Source: Bacteroidetes bacterium GWA2_40_15
GTDB taxonomy: Bacteria; Bacteroidota; Bacteroidia; Bacteroidales; VadinHA17
DNA length: 32,148 nucleotides
NCBI GenBank assembly: GCA_001768195.1
Contig: MENI01000070.1
Location: forward strand, 1-32,148
Reading direction: 5' to 3'
Shown: positions 5,597 through 16,609 of the stretch, one piece after another
Layout: every line of letters begins with the position of its first letter
Numbering within the stretch: position 1 is the stretch's first letter
The notes under the pieces: model-generated
Databases searched by the model: none
Told to the model about the DNA's origin: nothing
Seen by the model: the letters and a program-made list of their open reading frames with translations, nothing else
Made by a program: the position numbers and the translations under genes

Positions 5597-5992
5597 TTAC
5601 AAAACGCTCAAATATTGTTCCAGTGCCTCCCTTACAGTGAAAGGAAGTCTTGTCATATGCTCCTTAATAACATAGTCATCAGCACCTGATTTTATACATT
5701 GAACAGCAATCTCTTCATTAACTGACCCGGTACAAAGGATAAAAGGGATATCGCTATTGAATTCTTTTACTATTTTAAGAGTCTGTAATCCATTAAATGA
5801 AGGCATCATGTAATCTGAGATAATCAGATCAGGTTTGAACTCCGCCAAGGTCTTTAAGAGATCTTCCCCGGTAAATACTGTAATATGTTCAAAAACAATA
5901 TTTTCCTTTCTTAGTTCCATTACTTCGAGTTCCACATCCGATGAAAGGTCCTCAACAAAAAGAATCCTTAAAATACTGTCGTTTCCCTTCAT
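5597..5992 (-). CDS. Receiver-domain protein (N-terminal part of a broken hybrid kinase?)
   Basis: This 131 aa protein is a single phosphoreceiver domain: E14/D15 acidic pair, phosphoacceptor D60 in IISDYMMP, T88 in CTGS and K110 in VIKEH. The version ending ADDYVIKEHMTRL...REALEQ is typical of receivers at the N-terminus of Bacteroidota multi-domain kinases, where a PAS or kinase part follows. Here homology stops at Q126 and only five codons (YLSVL) precede TAA. At exactly that point the next frame begins the C-terminal ATPase sequence IFERF. It lies 31 bases downstream of the PAS-PAS-GAF kinase on the same strand, so it could still serve as that kinase's single-domain response regulator. 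The receiver is intact; status as an independent gene is uncertain. Confidence 0.75.
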   Translation of the reverse strand: MKGNDSILRILFVEDLSSDVELEVMELRKENIVFEHITVFTGEDLLKTLAEFKPDLIISDYMMPSFNGLQTLKIVKEFNSDIPFILCTGSVNEEIAVQCIKSGADDYVIKEHMTRLPFTVREALEQYLSVL

Positions 5993-6023
5993 ATAACAAT
6001 TTCAATTAATAGTCATCAAATAG

Positions 6024-8108
6024 TTAAGGTATCAATATCTTAAAGGAACTTCCTTTATCAACTTCACTTTCCACCAGAATTTTACCATTATGCTTCCCAA
6101 CAAATTCCTTGCACAATAATAAGCCCAGGCCACTGCTCGCCTCACCATCTGTTCCTTTCCGGCCTGTTTTTTCGTTCATATGAAATAGTTTATTCTTCAT
6201 ATCCTGTGTCATACCTATACCTGTATCTGTGACCGAGATCTCAATACTATTGTCCTTATTGGTTTTGGCTGAAACCATAACTTTACCACCGTGGGGAGTG
6301 AATTTAACAGCATTGGTAATAATGTTTCTGATAACTGTTGTAAGCATATGACTATCAGCAGTTATTTCAAGGTCATCATTAACTAAAACTTCAATTAAGA
6401 TCCCTTTTTTATTTGCTAAAGATGAAACAGACTCAAGGCTGGCATTTATTTCATTAAGAAGGGTAAGTTTAACAGGATTGAATTCCAACACACCGCGCTG
6501 GAGACGAGACCACTCCAGAAGGTTTTCGAGCAACCTGTAGACATTGACAGCATCAGTTTTCATACTAATTGTGATGTCCCGGATTTCTTCGAATGTCATA
6601 TTCTGAATATCTTCTTCAAGTATCTGGGTAGCTGCCACAAAGGCACTCAATGGTCCGCGGAGGTCATGAGCAATTATTGAAAAGAATTTGTCTTTTTCTT
6701 TATTTAGGGCTTCCAGAAGCTCATTCTTCAACTTAATCTCTTCTTCGGATTTTTTTCGTTCAATGGCAATTGCAATCTGGCGGCCAATTGTCATAAGTAT
6801 CTTTACATCCTTTTCAGAATAGACATTTTCCATTTTATAGTGCTGGAGGACAATAACACCGATAGTCTGAGAGGGTGTCTGAAGAGGAATACCTATCCAG
6901 GAAGGAGAAGCAGATCCCACTAATTCAACCTCATTCAATTCAACAAGATGGTCGAAATCATCCTGTGTAAACAGGAATGGCTTCCCTTTCCTGAAAACAT
7001 AAGCAGTGCAGCTTTTTAACATTGATGTCGGCAATGGGACAGTATCAAACTTGTCGACAAAATACGGAAAACTGAACAAACCTGTTTTTTGATCATATAG
7101 TGCCACAAAACAGTTCTCAGCATAAACAACTTTGGAAAGTGACCCATGTATCAGCGACAGAAAGTCCTGCAGGTTATCTGATGAAGTATATCCCTGTGAA
7201 ATCTCATAAAACACCTGGTTTTCAAGCTCAGTTCTCTTCCGTGCGGTTATATCCCGGTTAAATCCTGCAAGACCAATTATCTTTCCTTCAGAATCTCTGA
7301 CCGGTACTTTTGAAGTTAAGTTCCACTTCATCTCCCCGGTTTTCTTATCAACAACCTGTTCCTCGTGATTAAGTAAAGGTTCCCCTATTTTCATTATTTT
7401 CTGCTCATCGTTAAAGTATTGCCGGGCCATATGTTCAGGGTAAAAGTCAAAATCACTCTTCCCAATCATATCATCTTCCGATTCACATCCGGCTAATAAC
7501 GCCACCGGTTTGTTGCAAAATACAAATCTGCTGTCACTGTCTTTGTAAAAGATCTGATCGGGACTGTTATTAATTATCGCTTCCAGCAACATCTGTTTCA
7601 GACGCAGAGCCTCTTCAAGGTTTTTCTTTTCGGTAATATCTTTTGTGATGTTAAGAATATGAGGAACTCCATCAATGTCAATGAGTGAAGCAGACATTGA
7701 ACCATTTATGACACTGCCATCCTTACTCCGGAAATCAGCTTCAAAGTTTTCAACCTTTCCACTCTTTTCGAGTGCTGCGACAAGCTTGAATCGGTCCCCG
7801 GAGTTGACCCAGATATTAAGATCGAGAGAGGTCTTGCCGAGAACATCTTCTTCAGTGAATCCCATTATTTTTGTAAACCCTTCATTAACAGATACAAAAA
7901 ACCCATCAGAAAGTCTGTTAATATTTACAGAGTCGGGACTTACCAGAAAGGCTTTCCTGAATATCTCTTCACTTCTATTAGCTCTCGCTTCAGCCTGCCT
8001 GGCAAATAAAATTTCTTCCTCATACTTTTGCCTATTGACTTTGCTGAGGTTTGTAATTTCCTTCAGTTCAGAAATCAGTTCTTCTCTGGTTTTATCAGAA
8101 TGATCCAT
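6024..8108 (-). CDS. Soluble PAS-PAS-GAF sensor histidine kinase
   Basis: From the Met at 8108 (MDHSDKTREEL) the protein has 694 aa; a longer frame to 8186 adds 26 residues that look non-coding. Domains in order: a coiled-coil N-terminus (about 1-45), PAS (50-165), a second PAS (172-292) ending in the usual DIT-x-x-K/R linker, GAF (about 305-452), HisKA with phosphoacceptor H481 in FFSIIAHDLRGPLS, and HATPase with N box (N599 in NIITNAVKF), G1 DTGIGM (628-633) and G2 SGLGL (659-663). No membrane segment is present, so it senses a cytoplasmic signal through its PAS/GAF domains; the ligand is unknown. It autophosphorylates its histidine and passes the phosphate to a receiver, plausibly the one 31 bases downstream. 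It is divergent from the HAD gene across a 260-base spacer. Unlike the other two kinases nearby it appears complete. Confidence 0.9.
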   Translation of the reverse strand: MDHSDKTREELISELKEITNLSKVNRQKYEEEILFARQAEARANRSEEIFRKAFLVSPDSVNINRLSDGFFVSVNEGFTKIMGFTEEDVLGKTSLDLNIWVNSGDRFKLVAALEKSGKVENFEADFRSKDGSVINGSMSASLIDIDGVPHILNITKDITEKKNLEEALRLKQMLLEAIINNSPDQIFYKDSDSRFVFCNKPVALLAGCESEDDMIGKSDFDFYPEHMARQYFNDEQKIMKIGEPLLNHEEQVVDKKTGEMKWNLTSKVPVRDSEGKIIGLAGFNRDITARKRTELENQVFYEISQGYTSSDNLQDFLSLIHGSLSKVVYAENCFVALYDQKTGLFSFPYFVDKFDTVPLPTSMLKSCTAYVFRKGKPFLFTQDDFDHLVELNEVELVGSASPSWIGIPLQTPSQTIGVIVLQHYKMENVYSEKDVKILMTIGRQIAIAIERKKSEEEIKLKNELLEALNKEKDKFFSIIAHDLRGPLSAFVAATQILEEDIQNMTFEEIRDITISMKTDAVNVYRLLENLLEWSRLQRGVLEFNPVKLTLLNEINASLESVSSLANKKGILIEVLVNDDLEITADSHMLTTVIRNIITNAVKFTPHGGKVMVSAKTNKDNSIEISVTDTGIGMTQDMKNKLFHMNEKTGRKGTDGEASSGLGLLLCKEFVGKHNGKILVESEVDKGSSFKILIP

Positions 8109-9044: not shown

Positions 9045-10052
9045 TTACAGATCGGAGATTTGGATAATAGCTTTAACCCATTCATCATTATCATTCATAC
9101 TCTTAACCATAACAAACTCTTCGCCACCCTCCTTTTTAAACAGGCTCCTGTATTCTTCGTCAATCTCAATGATAGTTTCAAGACAGTCAGCTACGAATGA
9201 AGGAGCAATAACCAGTACCTTCCTGGTTCCTCCCCTGGCAAGATTCTGAAGAACCACGTCAGTAAATGGTTTAAGCCAGCGCCGGGTTAACCTCGATTGA
9301 AATGAAGTAGAGAATTTCCCGGGAGAAAGGTTCAGTTTTTCAGCGAGCAAACGGGTTGTTGCGTAACATGTTGCTTTATAACACATTGAACATTCACAAG
9401 GGAATGCCTTTTCACAACTGCATTTTCTGCAATCTGATCCGGGATGAATTCTTTCTATATGACTTAGGGGTAGTCCGTGATATGAAAAAAGTACATGATC
9501 AAATTTTGAAGGGTCATAGCCACTTAAATGAATTGTCATGGCATTAATGTAAGCCGGGTGTGAATAGAATTGTCCAATCAGCCTGATCTCAGGGATAATA
9601 TCCCAATGCCTTACTTTGCTGAATATAAACTCATTTACAGAACCTGTTGTTGATGATGCATAATGAGGATATAAGGGGAAGATAATAATCTGTTCAGGCG
9701 ACTGGTTCCTGACATGCTCAAGAGTATTTTGTAATGAAGGATTCCCGTAGCGCATGGCACCAATAACTTCATATTCATCTTTCAGGCAGGACTTAACCTT
9801 GCCGACAAGATTTTCCAGATTAAATAATAATGGAGACCCCTCTTCAGTCCATAGTTTTAAGTACTTGCGGGTTGATACCGGTGCCCTGAAAGGCACTATA
9901 ATTATGTTCACCAGGAGCTTCCTTAGAAGCCAGGGGATATCTATTACTCTCCTGTCATTCAGAAATTCCGAAAGATACCTGCGTACCTCTCTGACTCCGG
10001 GTTTATCGGGAGTACCTGTGTTGATCAATATCAGAAACTTCCTGCTCATCAT
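9045..10052 (-). CDS. hemH: Ferrochelatase with a cysteine-rich insertion
   Basis: Ferrochelatase inserts Fe2+ into protoporphyrin IX, the last step of protoporphyrin-dependent heme synthesis. The 335 aa protein has the N-terminal signature LILINTGTPDKP, the catalytic histidine H192 in FSYHGLP, and the conserved acid E292 in DCLETIIEI. Between them lies an insertion with seven cysteines (C208, C211, C213, C219, C221, C224, C229), making the H-to-E distance about 30 residues longer than in E. coli. Several bacterial ferrochelatases bind a [2Fe-2S] cluster through cysteines in this general region, so a cluster is plausible but not proven. The gene is last in a five-gene minus-strand run, starting 4 nt after the oxidase gene. 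No signal peptide or membrane segment is present, consistent with a cytoplasmic or membrane-peripheral enzyme. Confidence 0.95.
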   Translation of the reverse strand: MMSRKFLILINTGTPDKPGVREVRRYLSEFLNDRRVIDIPWLLRKLLVNIIIVPFRAPVSTRKYLKLWTEEGSPLLFNLENLVGKVKSCLKDEYEVIGAMRYGNPSLQNTLEHVRNQSPEQIIIFPLYPHYASSTTGSVNEFIFSKVRHWDIIPEIRLIGQFYSHPAYINAMTIHLSGYDPSKFDHVLFSYHGLPLSHIERIHPGSDCRKCSCEKAFPCECSMCYKATCYATTRLLAEKLNLSPGKFSTSFQSRLTRRWLKPFTDVVLQNLARGGTRKVLVIAPSFVADCLETIIEIDEEYRSLFKKEGGEEFVMVKSMNDNDEWVKAIIQISDL

Positions 10053-10056
10053 AACT

Positions 10057-11424
10057 TTATTTCAGCATATCGGCAATCAGCTTTGCCTGTTTTACTCTGT
10101 CAGCCATCCCTATTCCATCCCTTATATTACCCGCCAGAATAAGTCCGGGATATTGTTCCTGGATTTTTCTGATACTGTCAAGCCGTTCACCTGAAGAGAT
10201 TCCGTACTGTGGAATAGCATGTGTATATCTGAAAATTTTCAGGAGATCAGGATGTTGTCCTGGGAAGAGAGTACTTTCTACCTCTCGCAGAACTATCTCT
10301 TCAATCTCTACATCCTGTTTATTTATCATTTCAGGTCTCTTCATTCCCCCCAGAAATGCTGATAACAAGGCACCTCCTTCAGGTGCTCTTCCGGAGAATA
10401 TGGCAGATGGAAATAAAATCCCAAGCACCTGGCGGTTTTCTTTTGATGGTATAAGTCCTCCGAATGCATCAAGCACATGACCTTCCCATTTATTGTAACC
10501 CAGTGCTACCTGTACAACTCCGGCATATTCCATATTTGTAATTGGAGATAATTTATATGGTGTAATAAAAGGCAAAAGATCAGGTAAATTATATGATCCT
10601 ATGGTTGAAACTATTACAGGCGCTGATAATTTAATACTATCGCCCCTCTTGTCGGAGAATATTACGGAGAAACCATTTCCTTCAGGTTCAACACAGGTGC
10701 CCGAAGCTTCGTAAAAGATATTTTTTTCACCTGTATTCTCAGCAAGTGGCATGATTAAATTTCCAAGACCACCTTTTACTGAGAATACCTCCTTTGTTGC
10801 TTTTTTTTCTGCCTCGCTCTTCATTTCCCTGCTTTTTTTTATTGCTCCCCTGATGAAGCTTCCATAGTTCTGTTCAAGTGCATAAAGTTTAGGCAATGCA
10901 TACCTGGTAACCAGTTTCTGAGGATCACCTGCATAAATACCTGATATAAAAGGATCAACTGCATAATCGAGATAGCTCTGACCTAACCTTCTGACTACCA
11001 TCATGCCAATTGATTCATCAGGATCGATTCCGGGTTTACGGAAAGGCTCGGCAAGAATTCCCATCTTGTCCTTAAAAGAGAACAGAGGTGTTCCTATAGC
11101 CGAAATAAGGCTGGAAGGCAGAGCATGCCATTTTCCATTTTTGAGTATATACCTTTTTTGCGCTTTCGGATCTGCAGTGGCAAGAGTACAACTATCACTT
11201 AAATCATCAAAGAGAGATGCTATTTCAGGAGTCCCCAGAACACCTGTATTAGGCCCTGTCTCATAAATAAATCCCCGATCTGAAACAGTGTTTATTACCC
11301 CTCCCGGCCTGTCGGATTTTTCAATAATGACAGGATATTTACCATTTCGTTTCAGATAGTAAGCCAGTGTCAGCCCCGTAAGACCAGCCCCGATAATGAC
11401 AACATCAGCATCTTTTCTATTCAT
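10057..11424 (-). CDS. hemY: Protoporphyrinogen oxidase, HemY-type (FAD)
   Basis: This flavoenzyme oxidises protoporphyrinogen IX to protoporphyrin IX, between HemN and HemH in the pathway. From the Met at 11424 (MNRKDADVVIIGAG) it has 455 aa, normal for HemY/PPOX. It shows the dinucleotide-binding motif GAGLTG (12-17), the ribose-binding acid E35 in VIIEKSDRPGG, the family's ETGPN substrate-side motif, and the C-terminal FAD motif AGNIRDGIGMADRV. It is often called hemG in Bacteroidota, but the sequence is HemY-like (amine-oxidase fold), not the flavodoxin-like E. coli HemG. A longer frame to 11490 would overlap hemN heavily; the chosen start leaves 4 nt to the hemN stop. HemY enzymes can also oxidise coproporphyrinogen, so a coproporphyrin branch is formally possible, but HemN next door favours the protoporphyrin route. 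Confidence 0.93.
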   Translation of the reverse strand: MNRKDADVVIIGAGLTGLTLAYYLKRNGKYPVIIEKSDRPGGVINTVSDRGFIYETGPNTGVLGTPEIASLFDDLSDSCTLATADPKAQKRYILKNGKWHALPSSLISAIGTPLFSFKDKMGILAEPFRKPGIDPDESIGMMVVRRLGQSYLDYAVDPFISGIYAGDPQKLVTRYALPKLYALEQNYGSFIRGAIKKSREMKSEAEKKATKEVFSVKGGLGNLIMPLAENTGEKNIFYEASGTCVEPEGNGFSVIFSDKRGDSIKLSAPVIVSTIGSYNLPDLLPFITPYKLSPITNMEYAGVVQVALGYNKWEGHVLDAFGGLIPSKENRQVLGILFPSAIFSGRAPEGGALLSAFLGGMKRPEMINKQDVEIEEIVLREVESTLFPGQHPDLLKIFRYTHAIPQYGISSGERLDSIRKIQEQYPGLILAGNIRDGIGMADRVKQAKLIADMLK

Positions 11425-11428
11425 TGTA

Positions 11429-12808
11429 CTATACTGGTTTAGAATATGTTTGTACTTTTTCCCTGTACGCTTTGTCGAGGGAAGCAGCAATATTGCGTAT
11501 AAAAAAAGAACCTGTTTCTGTCACCTCTATATTATCAGGGGTATAAGAAATGAGTCCGTCTCTTTCCATATCATGCATTTTAATTTCATCAAAATTTATT
11601 GACATTTTTATCATGTCGACAGACACTTTATGATTTGAAGCTACTTTTGAAAAACTGACCCGGTTATTGCACATAAGCTCAGTTATGACAGCTCTGGCCA
11701 GTATCTGTTCATCCGACAGGATATATCCCCTTTCCACGGGTAACTTCCCAAGGTTTATATCAGAAATATAATCCTTTATCTCCTTTCTGTTCTGGAAATA
11801 GCCCTCATCCATCTGGCTTATTGCAGTAACTCCGAATGCATAAACCTGACCGGTTGTCCTTCGCGTACAATATCCCTGAAAATTCCGGTGAAGATTTCCT
11901 TCCTTAAGTGCATTGTAAAGATCATCTGATGGCAAAACAAAATGGTCAAGTCCTATAGGTTCATATCCCGATTCCTTTAACAGGTCGTACGCTGAGAGAA
12001 ACATTTTTGTTTTTTCACCTGCAGAAGGCAAACCTCTTTTCTCAAGGATGAGCTGATGTTTTTTAATCCACGGAACATGGGCATACGAGAATGTAACCAG
12101 CCTGTCAGGTTTTATCTCAGCTGCCATTTGCATTGTCTCGGTAAAAGATGATACACTCTGCCCGGGCAGACCATATATAAAGTCAAAGTTCACGCCTGTA
12201 CCGGCGCCGGCCGACTTTATATAGTTGAACAGTTCTCCGGGAGGTATAGCTGAAGGCTGACGGTTTACCTTACTGAGAATTTCTGTATTAAAATCCTGAA
12301 TTCCAAGACTGAAACGATTAAATCCTGCCAACAACAGATCATCAATATATTTCAGATCGAGGTATGCAGGATTGCACTCAATTGCTATTTCAGGATTCTC
12401 GATTAAAGAAAACTCAGAAAAGAGGTAATCATTAAGGCTTCGAATAAAAGATATATCGATCGAATTTGGAGTACCGCCTCCATAATGTATTTGTGAAACG
12501 GGACGGTCTTTGTTAATATATTGAGAAACAAGTTCTATCTCCTTTTTCAGTGCTGCCACATAAGGCTTTACCATGTTTCCGTTACCTATCGAACAGGCGT
12601 TGCATCCGCAGTAGAAACATATTTTTTCACAGAATGGAATATGAAAATAGAGAGCTATATTTTCAGGTTTTCTTTCATTGGATCCTCTCAGCACTCTGAT
12701 GAAGTCATTCTCTGAGTAAGAATCCTTAAAGTGATTTGCCGGAGGATAACTGGTATACCGGGGTACAGGGACATTATATTTTAAAAGAAGCTCTTCAAAT
12801 ATCTTCAT
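11429..12808 (-). CDS. hemN: Oxygen-independent coproporphyrinogen III dehydrogenase (radical SAM)
   Basis: HemN decarboxylates two propionate side chains of coproporphyrinogen III to give protoporphyrinogen IX, using SAM and a [4Fe-4S] cluster. The 459 aa protein begins with the HemN-specific VPRYTSYPPANHF segment (15-27), which separates true HemN from the heme chaperone HemW. It has the cluster motif CEKICFYCGC (C60, C64, C67, then C69) and the SAM-binding YGGGTPN segment. The start at 12808 is preferred over an ATG at 12838 because family homology begins there; it overlaps the end of the permease gene by 14 bases, a sign of translational coupling. The oxygen-independent enzyme fits an anaerobic or facultative lifestyle. 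The protein lies between the permease and HemY in a run ordered as the reactions are. Confidence 0.95.
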   Translation of the reverse strand: MKIFEELLLKYNVPVPRYTSYPPANHFKDSYSENDFIRVLRGSNERKPENIALYFHIPFCEKICFYCGCNACSIGNGNMVKPYVAALKKEIELVSQYINKDRPVSQIHYGGGTPNSIDISFIRSLNDYLFSEFSLIENPEIAIECNPAYLDLKYIDDLLLAGFNRFSLGIQDFNTEILSKVNRQPSAIPPGELFNYIKSAGAGTGVNFDFIYGLPGQSVSSFTETMQMAAEIKPDRLVTFSYAHVPWIKKHQLILEKRGLPSAGEKTKMFLSAYDLLKESGYEPIGLDHFVLPSDDLYNALKEGNLHRNFQGYCTRRTTGQVYAFGVTAISQMDEGYFQNRKEIKDYISDINLGKLPVERGYILSDEQILARAVITELMCNNRVSFSKVASNHKVSVDMIKMSINFDEIKMHDMERDGLISYTPDNIEVTETGSFFIRNIAASLDKAYREKVQTYSKPV

Positions 12809-14003
12809 TTTTATAATCTTTTGGAAGTGAGTAAACAAGAATTCCCATTGTAATAAGACAAAGCATTATTTCAATCCCGAATAATCCGGTGTAGCCGACA
12901 AGATCACCAACCTTGCCGCTCATTACAGCTATGATAAGGCTGCTGAGGTGAGTTATTACAATCTGAATTGTAAAATCAGTGCCCTCACGCCCTTTACGGA
13001 CAATGTCCATAGAAGTGGTGTAAATGGCAACCGATAAAAGCCCGTAAGATCCCCATAGCAATCCTATCCCGGCATACAGAGCGTATACTGAAGGAACAGA
13101 GAGGCTTATGAACCAGAACCAGGAGGCTGCCATAAGTCCGGTCAATAAAAAGATATACATGGAGAGTTTTCTGCCGGCCTTCCTGATAATTAATCCTCCT
13201 GCCAGAGCTGAAAGGGCTCCTACGGATGTGCCGAATATGCCTGACATAAAGCCAATCTGCTTTACATTATATCCAAGGTCGACAAGAAATGGTTTAAGCA
13301 TCGTAAGAATCCCAATGATCCCGGAATAAGTGAACATAAGGATCAGAACCCGTTTATGTTTGCCTTTTTCAGCAAAAAAACGATATATATCGGAAAAACT
13401 GACACTTTTATGCAAATCTGCATCAAATTCAGCAGGTTTACGGTAAAGCAGCATTGGTATTATAGCAAATACTACAAAAGCGGCCAGCAGGATCAATAAA
13501 TTTGTCCATCCAAAATAATGATATGCGATAAGAAGTACTCCTGTGCCGAAAAGGCTTCCTACAAAACTTCCGGCTGACTGCATGCTGTTGCCCAGACTTC
13601 TTTCTGAAGGTTTCAACTGAAGTATCGCAAATATATCCACAGCAATATCCTGGGTTGCGGAGGCTATAAAAGCAAGTATCATTAGTATTACGATAAGCTT
13701 AAAATCAGTCTGAAGATCGAATAATCCTATACTCAGGATAACCAGAGCATAAAATATTTCAGAGATTACTATCATTGACCTGAGACGACCTGACGTTCTG
13801 GCATTATTATCAATAAGCGGCGCCCACAGAAACTTGAATATCCATGGCAGTTTTACCAGCTGAAGCAATCCGATTGATTCAAGTGAGTATTTCTCCTGTC
13901 TCATGATGACAGGTATCACAGTTGAAAAAAAGCTCATCGGTATTGACTGGGCAATATAAAGGCTGAATAATACAGGGAATTTGAACCAGGTCTTTTCCTT
14001 CAT
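12795..14003 (-). CDS. MFS permease, AmpG/RhtX/FptX-like
   Basis: The 402 aa protein is a polytopic membrane protein with about 12 hydrophobic segments split by a charged central loop (about 200-220, RKPAEFDADLHKSV). It resembles the AmpG/RhtX/FptX branch of the major facilitator superfamily: PWIFKFLWAPLIDN in helix 2/loop 2-3 and the ATQDIAVDIFAI signature in helix 4. AmpG imports muropeptides; RhtX and FptX import siderophores after a TonB-dependent receptor has carried them across the outer membrane. Here the receptor gene ends 3 nt upstream and hemN begins within the last 14 bases, so the natural inference is import of the receptor's ligand for use by the heme enzymes, most simply a porphyrin. 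Substrate assignment rests on context alone; the transporter class is well supported. Confidence 0.9.
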   Translation of the reverse strand: MKEKTWFKFPVLFSLYIAQSIPMSFFSTVIPVIMRQEKYSLESIGLLQLVKLPWIFKFLWAPLIDNNARTSGRLRSMIVISEIFYALVILSIGLFDLQTDFKLIVILMILAFIASATQDIAVDIFAILQLKPSERSLGNSMQSAGSFVGSLFGTGVLLIAYHYFGWTNLLILLAAFVVFAIIPMLLYRKPAEFDADLHKSVSFSDIYRFFAEKGKHKRVLILMFTYSGIIGILTMLKPFLVDLGYNVKQIGFMSGIFGTSVGALSALAGGLIIRKAGRKLSMYIFLLTGLMAASWFWFISLSVPSVYALYAGIGLLWGSYGLLSVAIYTTSMDIVRKGREGTDFTIQIVITHLSSLIIAVMSGKVGDLVGYTGLFGIEIMLCLITMGILVYSLPKDYKNEDI

Positions 14004-14006
14004 TTA

Positions 14007-16100
14007 CTAAAATTTTAATGATAAGTTCATCCCGATCTGGGCAGGTCTTCCTGTCTGAACATATTTATTACCCAATGCTTCAAAGTAGAAGGAATTATAA
14101 TCCTGATTGAACATGTTTTTTGTCCATATCTCTAGTTGAAGTGACTTTCTGGTGAAGGATAATTTTGCATCAAACAAGCCATAAAACGGTTGTTCAGTCA
14201 AATTCTCCTCATCCCAGAAGATAGGTCCTGCTCCCCGGTAGAGCGCGCTTGCTCTTATATTATCCAGAAAAGAGGAATTCCGGATCATGAACGTTTTTCC
14301 TGCCTGGAATGACAGAGTATGCCTGGGAACATATGGCAGATAGTTCCCGTTATAATCGGTTGATGAATTAACCACATAAGAGATAAATTGTGCATGAGTA
14401 TATCCGTAGGCTACCGTAAATTCATATCCTTTAAGGGGTATCGTTTTTATTGAAATTTCCCCTCCTTTGCTTACTGAATGGCCTGCATTTTTTAGCATAG
14501 ATCCTCTTCCGCTTGGCACGGTCTGATAGATCTGCTGGTTTTTCCAGTCAATGTAGTACAGAGCAAGGTCAGTATAGATTATTTTTTTAAACAAAGGCGT
14601 TTTGATACCAATTTCATAATTCCAGCTGAATTCCGGATCGAAAGTCAGATCTTCCGGACGTTCAAATGTCGAGTTGAATCCTCCGGTCTTATAACCTCTT
14701 GCAATAACTGCATATAAATTACTGTTCCGGATCTTATAGTTCAGTGCAAAACGCGGTATTACCTCAAGCGATTTCAGGGCAGGATATACAGTATCAGCCA
14801 GACTGGCCTCAATTCCCCTGAGGATACGATCATAAGTGTAATAAAGGAAATCCTTCTCGGTATCTATCCTTATTCCTCCTGTTATTGTCAGGTTCTTAGC
14901 GAGAAAATCATTAAGAGCTGACTGATGGAATAATGCAAATCCGTCAATCTTATGGTCATAAGTTTTTGTATAACTCAATTTCGAAGTAAAGGCATCCACA
15001 TCTACAATATTGTCGAAAGCCTGGTAAAAACCATAACCACCGAACAGCCAGTTATATCTCCTGTCAGGCTTTGATCTGGCAACAATCTCCTGTGAAATCA
15101 TATGCTGCTTCTGCTGCTGAACAATATAATAGAGAGAGTCGGGCGTAAAATCCTGATCAATGCCCTGAATATCATCCAGATATTGATAAGAAGTAGTTGC
15201 AATAAGATCAAAATTATTGCCTGAATACCGTACAAGAACTGCATCGGAAAACAGATTTCTGTCATATGAACTGTACTGGTTATAATTTATCTCTTCAGCA
15301 ACACTTAAAGAGTCGTTATAAATAGCATAAGGGTATCCGCCCTGCCTGCTTAATTCAAATCCTGCAATATTTTCTATTGTAAATCTTTTCGATATTTCAT
15401 AGATCATTCTGGTTCTGAAACCATAAGAATTCAACCTGTCAACCTGCGTACCGGTATAAACATTGGTATAGAAACCATCATTATAAATATAATTCAACGC
15501 TGCAGAAAAAGCGAATTTGTCGCTTAGTTTGTCGTAATGACCTGCGTTAAATGAATATGTACCATAATTTCCTGCCGATAGATTTATGTTTGTTCCGGTG
15601 TAGTCCATCGGTGAGGTTGTGACAATATTAATTATCCCACCCATTGTATTTCTTCCAAAGAGTGTTCCCTGGGGCCCCCTAAGGACCTCAATACGTCGTA
15701 TATCAAAAAAGTCGAAATCAAACGCTGCCTTTTCAAAATAGGGAACATAATCGACATACAATCCAACTGAAGGTGAATTTATCCTGGAACCAATGCCTCT
15801 TATATATACCGGAGATGTTAATTTTGAACCATAATCAGGCATATAAAAGTTTGGAGCCATGGCAGACATGTCACTAAGGGAGTTGATCTCATTTTCTCTG
15901 ACACTCACCGAAGAAATGACAGAAACTGAAGCCGGGATAGATTTATAAGTTACATTATCCTTTGAAGCTTTAATAACTATTTCTCCCAGCTCAATCATTT
16001 TCAGTATTGAACTGTCTGTTCCGACAGTAACCTCCTGGGAATTCAGTTTTGGAAAAACTGTCATACAAAATATTGCTATTATTATAATATATCTTTTCAT
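14007..16100 (-). CDS. TonB-dependent outer-membrane receptor (siderophore/porphyrin type)
   Basis: The 697 aa protein has a signal peptide (about 1-21), a TonB-box-like segment (LGEIVIKAS, about 39-47), a plug domain ending around EVLRGPQGTLFGRNTMGGIINIV, and a 22-strand-type barrel running to a terminal phenylalanine (NLSLKF), the outer-membrane insertion signal. It lacks the N-terminal carboxypeptidase-regulatory-like domain and the SusD partner seen with Bacteroidota glycan receptors, and looks more like siderophore receptors of the FyuA/FptA kind. It imports a scarce ligand with energy from TonB-ExbBD. It is first in the run receptor-permease-hemN-hemY-hemH, so a tetrapyrrole or iron complex is the likely cargo. 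No HasR/HmuR-type heme signature was identified by eye. A 161-base spacer separates it from the small membrane protein upstream; I see no exact -7 box there. Confidence 0.92.
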   Translation of the reverse strand: MKRYIIIIAIFCMTVFPKLNSQEVTVGTDSSILKMIELGEIVIKASKDNVTYKSIPASVSVISSVSVRENEINSLSDMSAMAPNFYMPDYGSKLTSPVYIRGIGSRINSPSVGLYVDYVPYFEKAAFDFDFFDIRRIEVLRGPQGTLFGRNTMGGIINIVTTSPMDYTGTNINLSAGNYGTYSFNAGHYDKLSDKFAFSAALNYIYNDGFYTNVYTGTQVDRLNSYGFRTRMIYEISKRFTIENIAGFELSRQGGYPYAIYNDSLSVAEEINYNQYSSYDRNLFSDAVLVRYSGNNFDLIATTSYQYLDDIQGIDQDFTPDSLYYIVQQQKQHMISQEIVARSKPDRRYNWLFGGYGFYQAFDNIVDVDAFTSKLSYTKTYDHKIDGFALFHQSALNDFLAKNLTITGGIRIDTEKDFLYYTYDRILRGIEASLADTVYPALKSLEVIPRFALNYKIRNSNLYAVIARGYKTGGFNSTFERPEDLTFDPEFSWNYEIGIKTPLFKKIIYTDLALYYIDWKNQQIYQTVPSGRGSMLKNAGHSVSKGGEISIKTIPLKGYEFTVAYGYTHAQFISYVVNSSTDYNGNYLPYVPRHTLSFQAGKTFMIRNSSFLDNIRASALYRGAGPIFWDEENLTEQPFYGLFDAKLSFTRKSLQLEIWTKNMFNQDYNSFYFEALGNKYVQTGRPAQIGMNLSLKF

Positions 16101-16261: not shown

Positions 16262-16609
16262 TCACATTCCGGGAGGGGGACGGGAGAAAAGACAAAAGGT
16301 AAAAAAATGAGAGTAGATCTCACTATCCGGAATAATATCTGCTTTGTCGAAATATGATTCATAAAATCCAATCCATAAGGCTTTTTCATCAATAGCATCA
16401 TTCTTATCCCTGGAATAATCATTGATGAAGTAAAAACTATTTGAATTGTCAATTGAATCCCTGCTTTCAGTCTGTTCAACAACCCCTGAATCAGCTATGC
16501 AGGATCTCTCTTTTGATTTGTTTATAGCATACAATCCCAGGTAGAGCATGTATAAAGCTCCGATTATGATGAGGGGTACCTGTGTTAATAAAGAACCAAA
16601 AGGAAGCAT
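16262..16609 (-). CDS. Small single-span membrane protein, hypothetical
   Basis: This 115 aa protein begins with a short periplasmic start and one strong hydrophobic helix (about 8-29, PLIIIGALYMLYLGLYAI) followed by a basic turn (NKSKERS) and a polar, acidic, probably cytoplasmic domain. I do not recognise a family beyond a resemblance to small Bacteroidota membrane proteins. Its TGA stop lies in a perfect 10-bp palindrome GTGATATCAC (16256-16265). It sits 161 bases upstream of the TonB receptor on the same strand, so co-transcription with the heme/uptake run is possible but unproven. The start ATG has no Shine-Dalgarno. An overlapping frame (16231-16482) is judged a shadow because it lacks a natural beginning. 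Confidence 0.5.
   Translation of the reverse strand: MLPFGSLLTQVPLIIIGALYMLYLGLYAINKSKERSCIADSGVVEQTESRDSIDNSNSFYFINDYSRDKNDAIDEKALWIGFYESYFDKADIIPDSEIYSHFFTFCLFSRPPPGM

Follow-up and report, generated by a model that had tools for sequence, protein, structure and literature searches.

A receptor-permease pair before late heme genes in Bacteroidales: a candidate import-and-finish cassette headed by a predicted ribosome-arrest leader

Among gut and oral Bacteroidota there are heme auxotrophs, some of which keep late heme enzymes, and the route by which precursors enter these cells is not settled in the accessible portions of the reports (PMC6173696, PMC6460266); a survey of environmental heme auxotrophs, also accessible in part, counts no known heme receptor in 60% of genomes (PMC11139205). 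A locus that raises this question lies in a stretch of 32,148 nucleotides, referred to here as the window, which is contig C70 (MENI01000070.1) of the 4.77 Mb, 99.98% complete genome of Bacteroidetes bacterium GWA2_40_15. In this stretch, a TonB-dependent receptor and a membrane permease stand directly before hemN, hemY and hemH, the genes of the last steps of heme synthesis, and it may be asked what such a pair transports and how it is tied to the enzymes behind it. The analysis presented below indicates that the pair quite likely imports a late tetrapyrrole precursor, and that the operon is probably an import-and-finish cassette for such a precursor, with coproporphyrin(ogen) III as the most likely one.

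The run, which is transcribed from the minus strand and listed in the order of its genes, consists of:

16262..16609, minus strand: leader open reading frame (ORF) of 115 amino acids (aa), first gene of the run, candidate RAPP-class ribosome-arrest leader
14007..16100, minus strand: TonB-dependent receptor, 697 aa, FyuA-like, with Plug and barrel domains, proposed outer-membrane porphyrin receptor
12795..14003, minus strand: major facilitator superfamily (MFS) permease, 402 aa, AmpG/RhtX/FptX-like, MFS_1 above cut-off, proposed inner-membrane importer
11429..12808, minus strand: hemN, oxygen-independent coproporphyrinogen III dehydrogenase, ATG start, longest frame from 12838
10057..11424, minus strand: hemY, protoporphyrinogen oxidase, ATG start, longest frame from 11490
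9045..10052, minus strand: hemH, ferrochelatase, PF00762 and TIGR00109 above cut-off

The five genes from the receptor to hemH are separated by 3, -14, 4 and 4 nucleotides, computed with the ATG starts of HemN (12808) and HemY (11424), and were all found at the positions and with the packing described in the initial annotation. The identities proposed there for the three enzymes are established directly by scores above curated cut-offs. HemN reaches 455.6 bits against TIGR00538 (cut-off 324.95) and 302 bits against E. coli HemN (1olt), and in the alignment to the latter it keeps the CxxxCxxC motif together with Y56, E145, Q172, R184, D209, Q311 and I329, which we take to be the radical-SAM and substrate residues of the E. 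coli enzyme. HemY scores 262.4 bits against TIGR00562 (cut-off 97.85) and 181 bits against the protoporphyrinogen oxidase 2ivd, and HemH scores 216.9 bits against TIGR00109 (cut-off 124.6) and 300.8 bits against PF00762 (cut-off 27). Two other assignments of HemN were rejected, namely a heme-degrading radical SAM enzyme of the ChuW/HutW type, for which TIGR04107 gives 149.5 bits against a cut-off of 400, and HemW, which was ruled out on scores.

The receptor carries Plug and barrel domains above the Pfam cut-offs, and a profile built from 22 receptor orthologues finds its best solved relative in the pesticin receptor 4epa (253 bits). It does not reach the cut-off for TonB-dependent siderophore receptors (TIGR01783, 129.7 bits, cut-off 223.5), and it stays far under those for TonB-dependent heme receptors (TIGR01785, 68.1 of 316.85 bits; TIGR01786, 41 of 323.75 bits). 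The FRAP/NPNL motif is presumably the mark of TonB-dependent heme receptors; the stretch of the alignment expected to hold it reads, by eye, GYKTGGFN...PE. For the permease, the best NCBIfam model is that of the RhtX/FptX siderophore permeases (TIGR02718, 164.2 bits, cut-off 356.15 not reached), the AmpG model TIGR00901 gives 135.7 bits (cut-off 350 not reached), and a profile of 24 permease sequences has AmpG as its nearest relative of solved structure. Receptors of the FyuA/FptA type pair with permeases of the RhtX/FptX type in siderophore uptake, and the window resembles this system in joining a TonB-dependent receptor to a single MFS permease of related families, although both proteins miss the family cut-offs and their partner genes are late heme enzymes. 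The pesticin receptor and RhtX/FptX scores are what favors an explanation in which the pair imports a siderophore or another metallophore, with the hem genes co-located only through co-regulation of iron supply and heme synthesis. This explanation is improbable, and it leaves several features of the distribution of HemN, given below, unaccounted for.

Linkage was assessed in 99 distinct permease loci, made up of the window, 24 loci from a sample of the order and the best 80 of 563 confirmed relatives in named genomes, among them Bacteroides fragilis, B. pyogenes, Parabacteroides, Prevotella, Dysgonomonas, Mariniphaga and Maribellus. Before the linkage and leader counts were made, loci sharing an identical stretch were removed; the rates describe near relatives of the permease only. 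Where enough flank was present, a receptor lies directly upstream of the permease in 91 of 95 loci (cut or partial receptors such as that of L056 included) and hemN directly downstream in 86 of 92, with hemY in 70 of 82 and hemH in 29 of 68. Within the 24 loci of the order sample other than the window, a receptor precedes the permease in 23, one of them being a 59-codon remnant (L056) and another being cut by a contig end (L063), and hemN and/or hemY follows in 23, neither gene being present after the permease in L069. The receptor-permease-hem linkage proposed in the initial annotation is conserved in near relatives and is not due to chance.

The same counts bear on the nature of the cargo. 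If the pair imported heme, protoporphyrin or porphyrins generally, HemN would be an optional extra. Such a role, which is rather unlikely, can draw on two cassettes (L058 and L065) without HemN, in whose genomes none was found, on the 39 of 68 loci in which no hemH was found within reach, and on a report, available in part, that Bacteroides fragilis, for which no HemH is known, converts protoporphyrin and iron to heme (PMC6460266). Nevertheless, no other hem gene of the cassette, hemY included, is as constant as HemN, which would be useless for the import of heme or protoporphyrin, and the low scores of the receptor against the heme-receptor models point in the same direction.

The distribution of the permease was determined in a sample of 198 genomes of the order, with matches accepted at an E-value of up to 1e-30 for the permease, up to 1e-70 for HemN and above the cut-off for HemH. 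The permease was detected in 25 genomes, HemB in 41, HemN in 55 and HemH in 54. Among the 25 carriers, 22 are without HemB, and all 22 are also without HemC and have no HemE above the cut-off, weak HemE-family matches being present in three of them (G019, G032 and G125). In carriers other than the window's genome, the absence of the early pathway is a statement about HemB, HemC and HemE, as hemA, hemL and hemD were not sought, and one of the 22, G130, is only 78% complete. The 157 HemB-negative genomes comprise 19 with permease and HemN, 3 with the permease only, 1 with HemN only and 134 with neither (Fisher p 2e-20, a value that ignores kinship, the 22 carriers spanning 18 families); in other words, HemN in a HemB-negative genome is accompanied by the permease in 19 of 20 cases. 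The only genome with HemN alone, G055, has hemE and a HemA-like match at most 4 kb from hemN. In addition, families f3 and f57 each contain one genome with HemB and no permease and one genome with the permease and no HemB. An importer of metallophores leaves unexplained both that HemN in HemB-negative genomes occurs almost only with the pair and that HemN is retained by carriers without hemB, hemC and hemE.

A further line of evidence is provided by the position of hemN. Its neighborhood was examined in 17 of the 32 permease-free genomes with both HemB and HemN, and in 11 of these 17 the early block runs into hemN, occupying the place where the receptor and permease stand in the cassette. In the HemB-positive carrier G013, the early block stops at hemE and the only hemN is the cassette copy; the cassette copy is also the only hemN of G099, another HemB-positive carrier, whose early contig ends about 200 bases past hemE. 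In Maribellus maritimus (L097), hemD-B-L-E is followed, about 1.9 kb on and on the same strand, by receptor-permease-hemN-hemY-hemH. Separation of hemN from hemE is also seen where the pair is absent, namely in the remaining six of the 17 permease-free genomes (L159, L162, L167, L169, L170 and L171), whose hemN is detached from the early genes, and the argument based on position is weakened by this.

The recruitment of the pair before two lineages of hemN is a stronger argument than gene place. In L077, L081 and L085, the pair precedes a hemN-hemH-hemY block like that of the prototrophs L156, L157, L161 and L165. The HemN proteins of these three loci group with prototroph HemN (support 100/99), and forcing them into the window's clade is rejected by the approximately unbiased test (p 8.7e-5, 30 chosen rows), whereas the permeases of these loci cluster with that of the window (96 starred). 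Since HemN goes with the prototrophs and the permeases go with the window's, one and the same pair is found in front of hemN genes of at least two lineages. The three HemN rows were chosen by their hemN-hemH-hemY order after a larger HemN tree had been seen; this larger tree holds 78 rows from cassettes and 18 others, and at least 10 changes of the cassette label are required in it, 6 of which are forced by starred branches. Rows of the trees and distances exclude proteins with an internal stop or with an aligned piece under 80% of the query, and identical sequences were removed from the trees.

These results also bear on whether the cassette is an old neighborhood retained by descent, with transport and hem genes functionally unrelated. 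Such hitchhiking is compatible with the correlation of receptor, permease, HemN and HemY distances (0.71 to 0.84 in 55 loci, with duplicates kept and no species-tree control), as well as with the six prototrophs in which hemN is apart from the early genes. It is very improbable, HemN having been exchanged within the arrangement and the pattern in HemB-negative genomes being unexpected under it. A metallophore importer, for its part, leaves unexplained that the pair stands before two different hemN lineages.

The initial annotation reads the run as a candidate porphyrin salvage-to-heme operon and notes a lack of early hem genes. That lack holds within the window but not in the genome, where contig C5 carries hemA, hemC, hemD, hemB, hemL, hemE and a second hemN in a single run, so that auxotrophy is not shown and a simple heme auxotroph is rejected. 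The salvage reading accordingly fails as a requirement in its own genome, which has the early pathway, but gains from the 22 of 25 carriers that are without HemB, HemC and above-cut-off HemE; the interpretation as a whole is partly supported. Behind the C5 hemN lie half of a hemY (the N-terminal part, profile positions 3 to 208 of 470) and a small membrane protein, with no hemH, and the only full-length hemY and the only hemH found in the whole genome are the window copies. With half a hemY and no hemH in the C5 run, the de novo pathway therefore seems to be completed by the window cassette. In the 30-row tree, the C5 hemN groups with prototroph operons and the window hemN lies in the cassette clade, so that the two do not stem from a recent duplication.

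Contamination as the source of C5 was weakly rejected, the tetranucleotide distance of its stretch L003 to DNA of the same genome being 0.152, compared with 0.079 to 0.125 for the genome's own chunks, which were included in the reference and are favored by it, and with 0.219 to 0.534 for six stretches taken from elsewhere, all in other genomes. The half hemY is an intact 223-aa frame (L003:3418-4089, minus strand) between the second hemN and the small membrane protein; related operons have hemH beyond that protein, where it is missing at C5. A membrane protein of 145 aa (L003:2912-3349) is kept near hemY in the prototroph operons L158, L164, L165 and L172, and it has no Pfam match above the cut-off. 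Near the hem operon is encoded a 390-aa protein (L003:13897-15069, minus strand) in which a uroporphyrinogen-III C-methyltransferase is preceded by an N-terminal part resembling HemC (HemC profile 1-143). G112, a genome of 2.6 Mb that belongs to the genus of the window's genome, has no match to the permease, HemB, HemN (at 1e-70) or HemH.

The leader upstream of the receptor has one predicted N-terminal membrane helix and ends in FSRPPPGM. Sufficient upstream DNA was available for 82 distinct loci; 46 of these have a small ORF that carries PP close to its end, and in 40 an ORF of 80 to 170 aa with R[PAG]PP at most 14 residues from its end lies upstream of the receptor. The motif takes the form RPPP in 32 of these 40 leaders, RGPP in 5 and RAPP in 3, and in 35 of the 40 it is separated from the stop by 2 to 4 residues. 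As a control, every other frame between 80 and 170 codons long was taken from the cassette loci and from 20 further loci, most of these frames probably not being genes; R[PAG]PP ends only 1 of these 1666 frames, and this single match is a second copy of the RPPP leader in L075. Six Arg and four Pro codons are used for the motif, which indicates that the peptide and not the DNA is conserved. Both ends of the leader are conserved and the body drifts, with a hydrophobic helix in 38 of the 40 leaders, His in 37, Cys in 34 and CxxC in 1. The window leader has no Pfam or NCBIfam match at E-values up to 5, and five relatives likewise gave no Pfam match at this threshold, DUF2946 (PF11162) included. 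An Rfam scan of the window gave 0 matches at the gathering score. No such leader was found in the examined loci of Bacteroides, Parabacteroides, Prevotella and Dysgonomonas, and within the window's genome it occurs at 2 of 30 receptor loci examined (of 34 matches). A second receptor of that genome, L180 (G000:C123:40518), is preceded by a His/Cys-rich 120-aa leader ending in LRAPPVCLA.

With a small upstream ORF, an N-terminal export signal or helix and R[A/G/P]PP near the C-terminus, the leader shows the sequence features of the RAPP class and is, as a prediction from sequence, likely to be a ribosome-arrest peptide of this class. Members such as ApdA, ApdP and SecM and the RAPP/RGPP class are described, in the accessible text, with an export signal or membrane helix, a drifting body and a motif a few residues before the stop (PMC12992588, PMC10987492), as in the cassette leaders. 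The latter differ in that RPPP is their main form, while RAPP and RGPP are the forms counted in the 2025 survey, RPPP being absent from the main text; the survey also reports TonB-class RAPP/RGPP leaders across Gram-negatives (PMC12992588). The leader could instead be an ordinary small membrane protein, for example a partner of the receptor, a possibility that is weighed separately from the explanations of the cassette and carries some probability, though clearly the smaller part of it. The hydrophobic helix and the His or Cys in most bodies would suit such a protein, arrest itself is a prediction, and RPPP is a weaker form of the motif in published mutagenesis, as far as that report is accessible (PMC12992588). 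On the other hand, only the two ends are conserved over a drifting body, the motif keeps the distance from the stop that is published for the RAPP class, and an Ala-to-Pro change in the RAPP of ApdA is reported to retain part of the arrest (PMC12992588).

A close parallel to a predicted arrest leader at this place is CruR (DUF2946), which, according to the portion of the report at hand, is the copper-responsive leader of the BfrG receptor in Bordetella pertussis and controls a TonB-dependent transporter; both are small leaders that precede the gene of a TonB-dependent receptor and carry a RAPP-type motif at the C-terminus (PMC9426467). The window leader differs from CruR in having no DUF2946 match, in the near absence of CxxC from the leader bodies (1 of 40), in its mostly RPPP motif and in the porphyrin and heme genes downstream. 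It is conceivable, as a speculation that we regard as unlikely, that the leader acts as a nascent-chain sensor of tetrapyrroles, whereby the stall would keep the receptor-permease-hem operon on and heme or a porphyrin, on contact with the nascent chain, in which His and Cys are present in most bodies, would release the stall and turn the operon off. If so, it would be a tetrapyrrole-responsive counterpart of CruR that governs a dedicated importer of coproporphyrin(ogen) III.

Taken as an import-and-finish cassette, the operon would work as follows. The TonB-dependent receptor would carry the tetrapyrrole over the outer membrane and the AmpG/RhtX-like permease would carry it over the inner membrane, after which HemN would yield protoporphyrinogen IX, HemY protoporphyrin IX and HemH heme. 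In most carriers, the cassette would replace the missing hemA-to-hemE block, and in the window's genome it may both salvage precursor and complete the home pathway. The leader peptide, at the head of the operon, would probably exert control through stalling of the ribosome at the C-terminal RPPP. The gene identities, their linkage and co-occurrence, the recruitment before two hemN lineages and the conservation of the leader are seen directly, and the direction of transport, the cargo, the stalling and its signal are inferred. Import of some late precursor by the pair is the better founded part of this reading, and coproporphyrin(ogen) III as the main cargo is probable.

Several observations weigh against this reading, in addition to the detached hemN of some prototrophs. 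Sequence similarity places the receptor closest to the pesticin receptor, and the permease closest to AmpG and to siderophore permeases. Salvage is not required in the window's genome, where the early pathway and a second hemN are present. The permease alone is not significantly tied to the absence of HemB (HemB in 3 of 25 carriers vs 38 of 173 other genomes, p 0.30), and the argument consequently rests on HemN in HemB-negative genomes; moreover, co-occurrence of genes inside one operon is partly built in. Three carriers have no HemN match at 1e-70: G032 and G158, in which receptor, permease and hemY are present and no HemN match was found in the genome, so that their cargo would have to enter at a later step, and G074, which has the permease without receptor or hem genes. 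These three carriers argue for some breadth of cargo. Five carriers are without HemH (G032, G059, G105, G117 and G130). In the gap between leader and receptor, RNA folding gives no sign of unusual structure (z -1.0). The substrate of HemN is the reduced porphyrinogen, and an imported oxidized porphyrin would first need reduction (no reductase was sought). A Leucobacter strain with late heme genes is reported, in a source seen in part, not to have been freed from its helper by coproporphyrins (PMC6868719).

Among known systems, Porphyromonas gingivalis is alike in being a heme auxotroph of the Bacteroidota in which HemN, HemG and HemH are retained and coproporphyrin III supports growth (PMC13227078, PMC6173696). 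It is unlike the cassette in that its hemophore HusA does not appear, in the accessible text, to bind coproporphyrin III (PMC6173696), and its HusA/HusB and HmuY/HmuR systems are described there without an MFS permease or hem enzymes alongside. The hem operon of Bacteroidota, hemA-C-D-B-L-E-N with Y and H, shares with the cassette the grouping of HemN, HemY and often HemH, whereas the cassette has receptor and permease before hemN in place of the early block. Neither the receptor-permease-hemN cassette nor its leader is described among the literature matches listed, which cover titles and abstract openings, with subscription papers mostly outside their scope. A receptor-permease pair tied to HemN in genomes negative for the early pathway makes cross-feeding on coproporphyrin directly testable in culturable relatives and might provide a growth factor for relatives that are still uncultured. 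With the leader, porphyrin uptake may in addition be under the control of a nascent peptide acting as a switch.

Variations on the gene set were also encountered. In L056 (G013, positions 5914-6662), the genome of which has HemB, an intact leader is followed by no more than the final 59 codons of the receptor; G130, of the same genus and 78% complete, in which no HemB was found, has a full receptor (L057). A second receptor, 36% identical, follows the cassette hem genes in L075 (13476-15713), and the Parabacteroides-type loci L062, L114, L116 and L123 have two tandem receptors before the permease. In the HemB-positive genome G082 (L159), a receptor of 32% identity is immediately followed by hemN-hemY, the permease being absent from between them. 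A divergent ferrochelatase that shares 24-28% identity with that of the window is located after hemN in L077, L078, L081, L082, L085 and L113 and after hemY in L130, a placement also seen in some prototroph operons.

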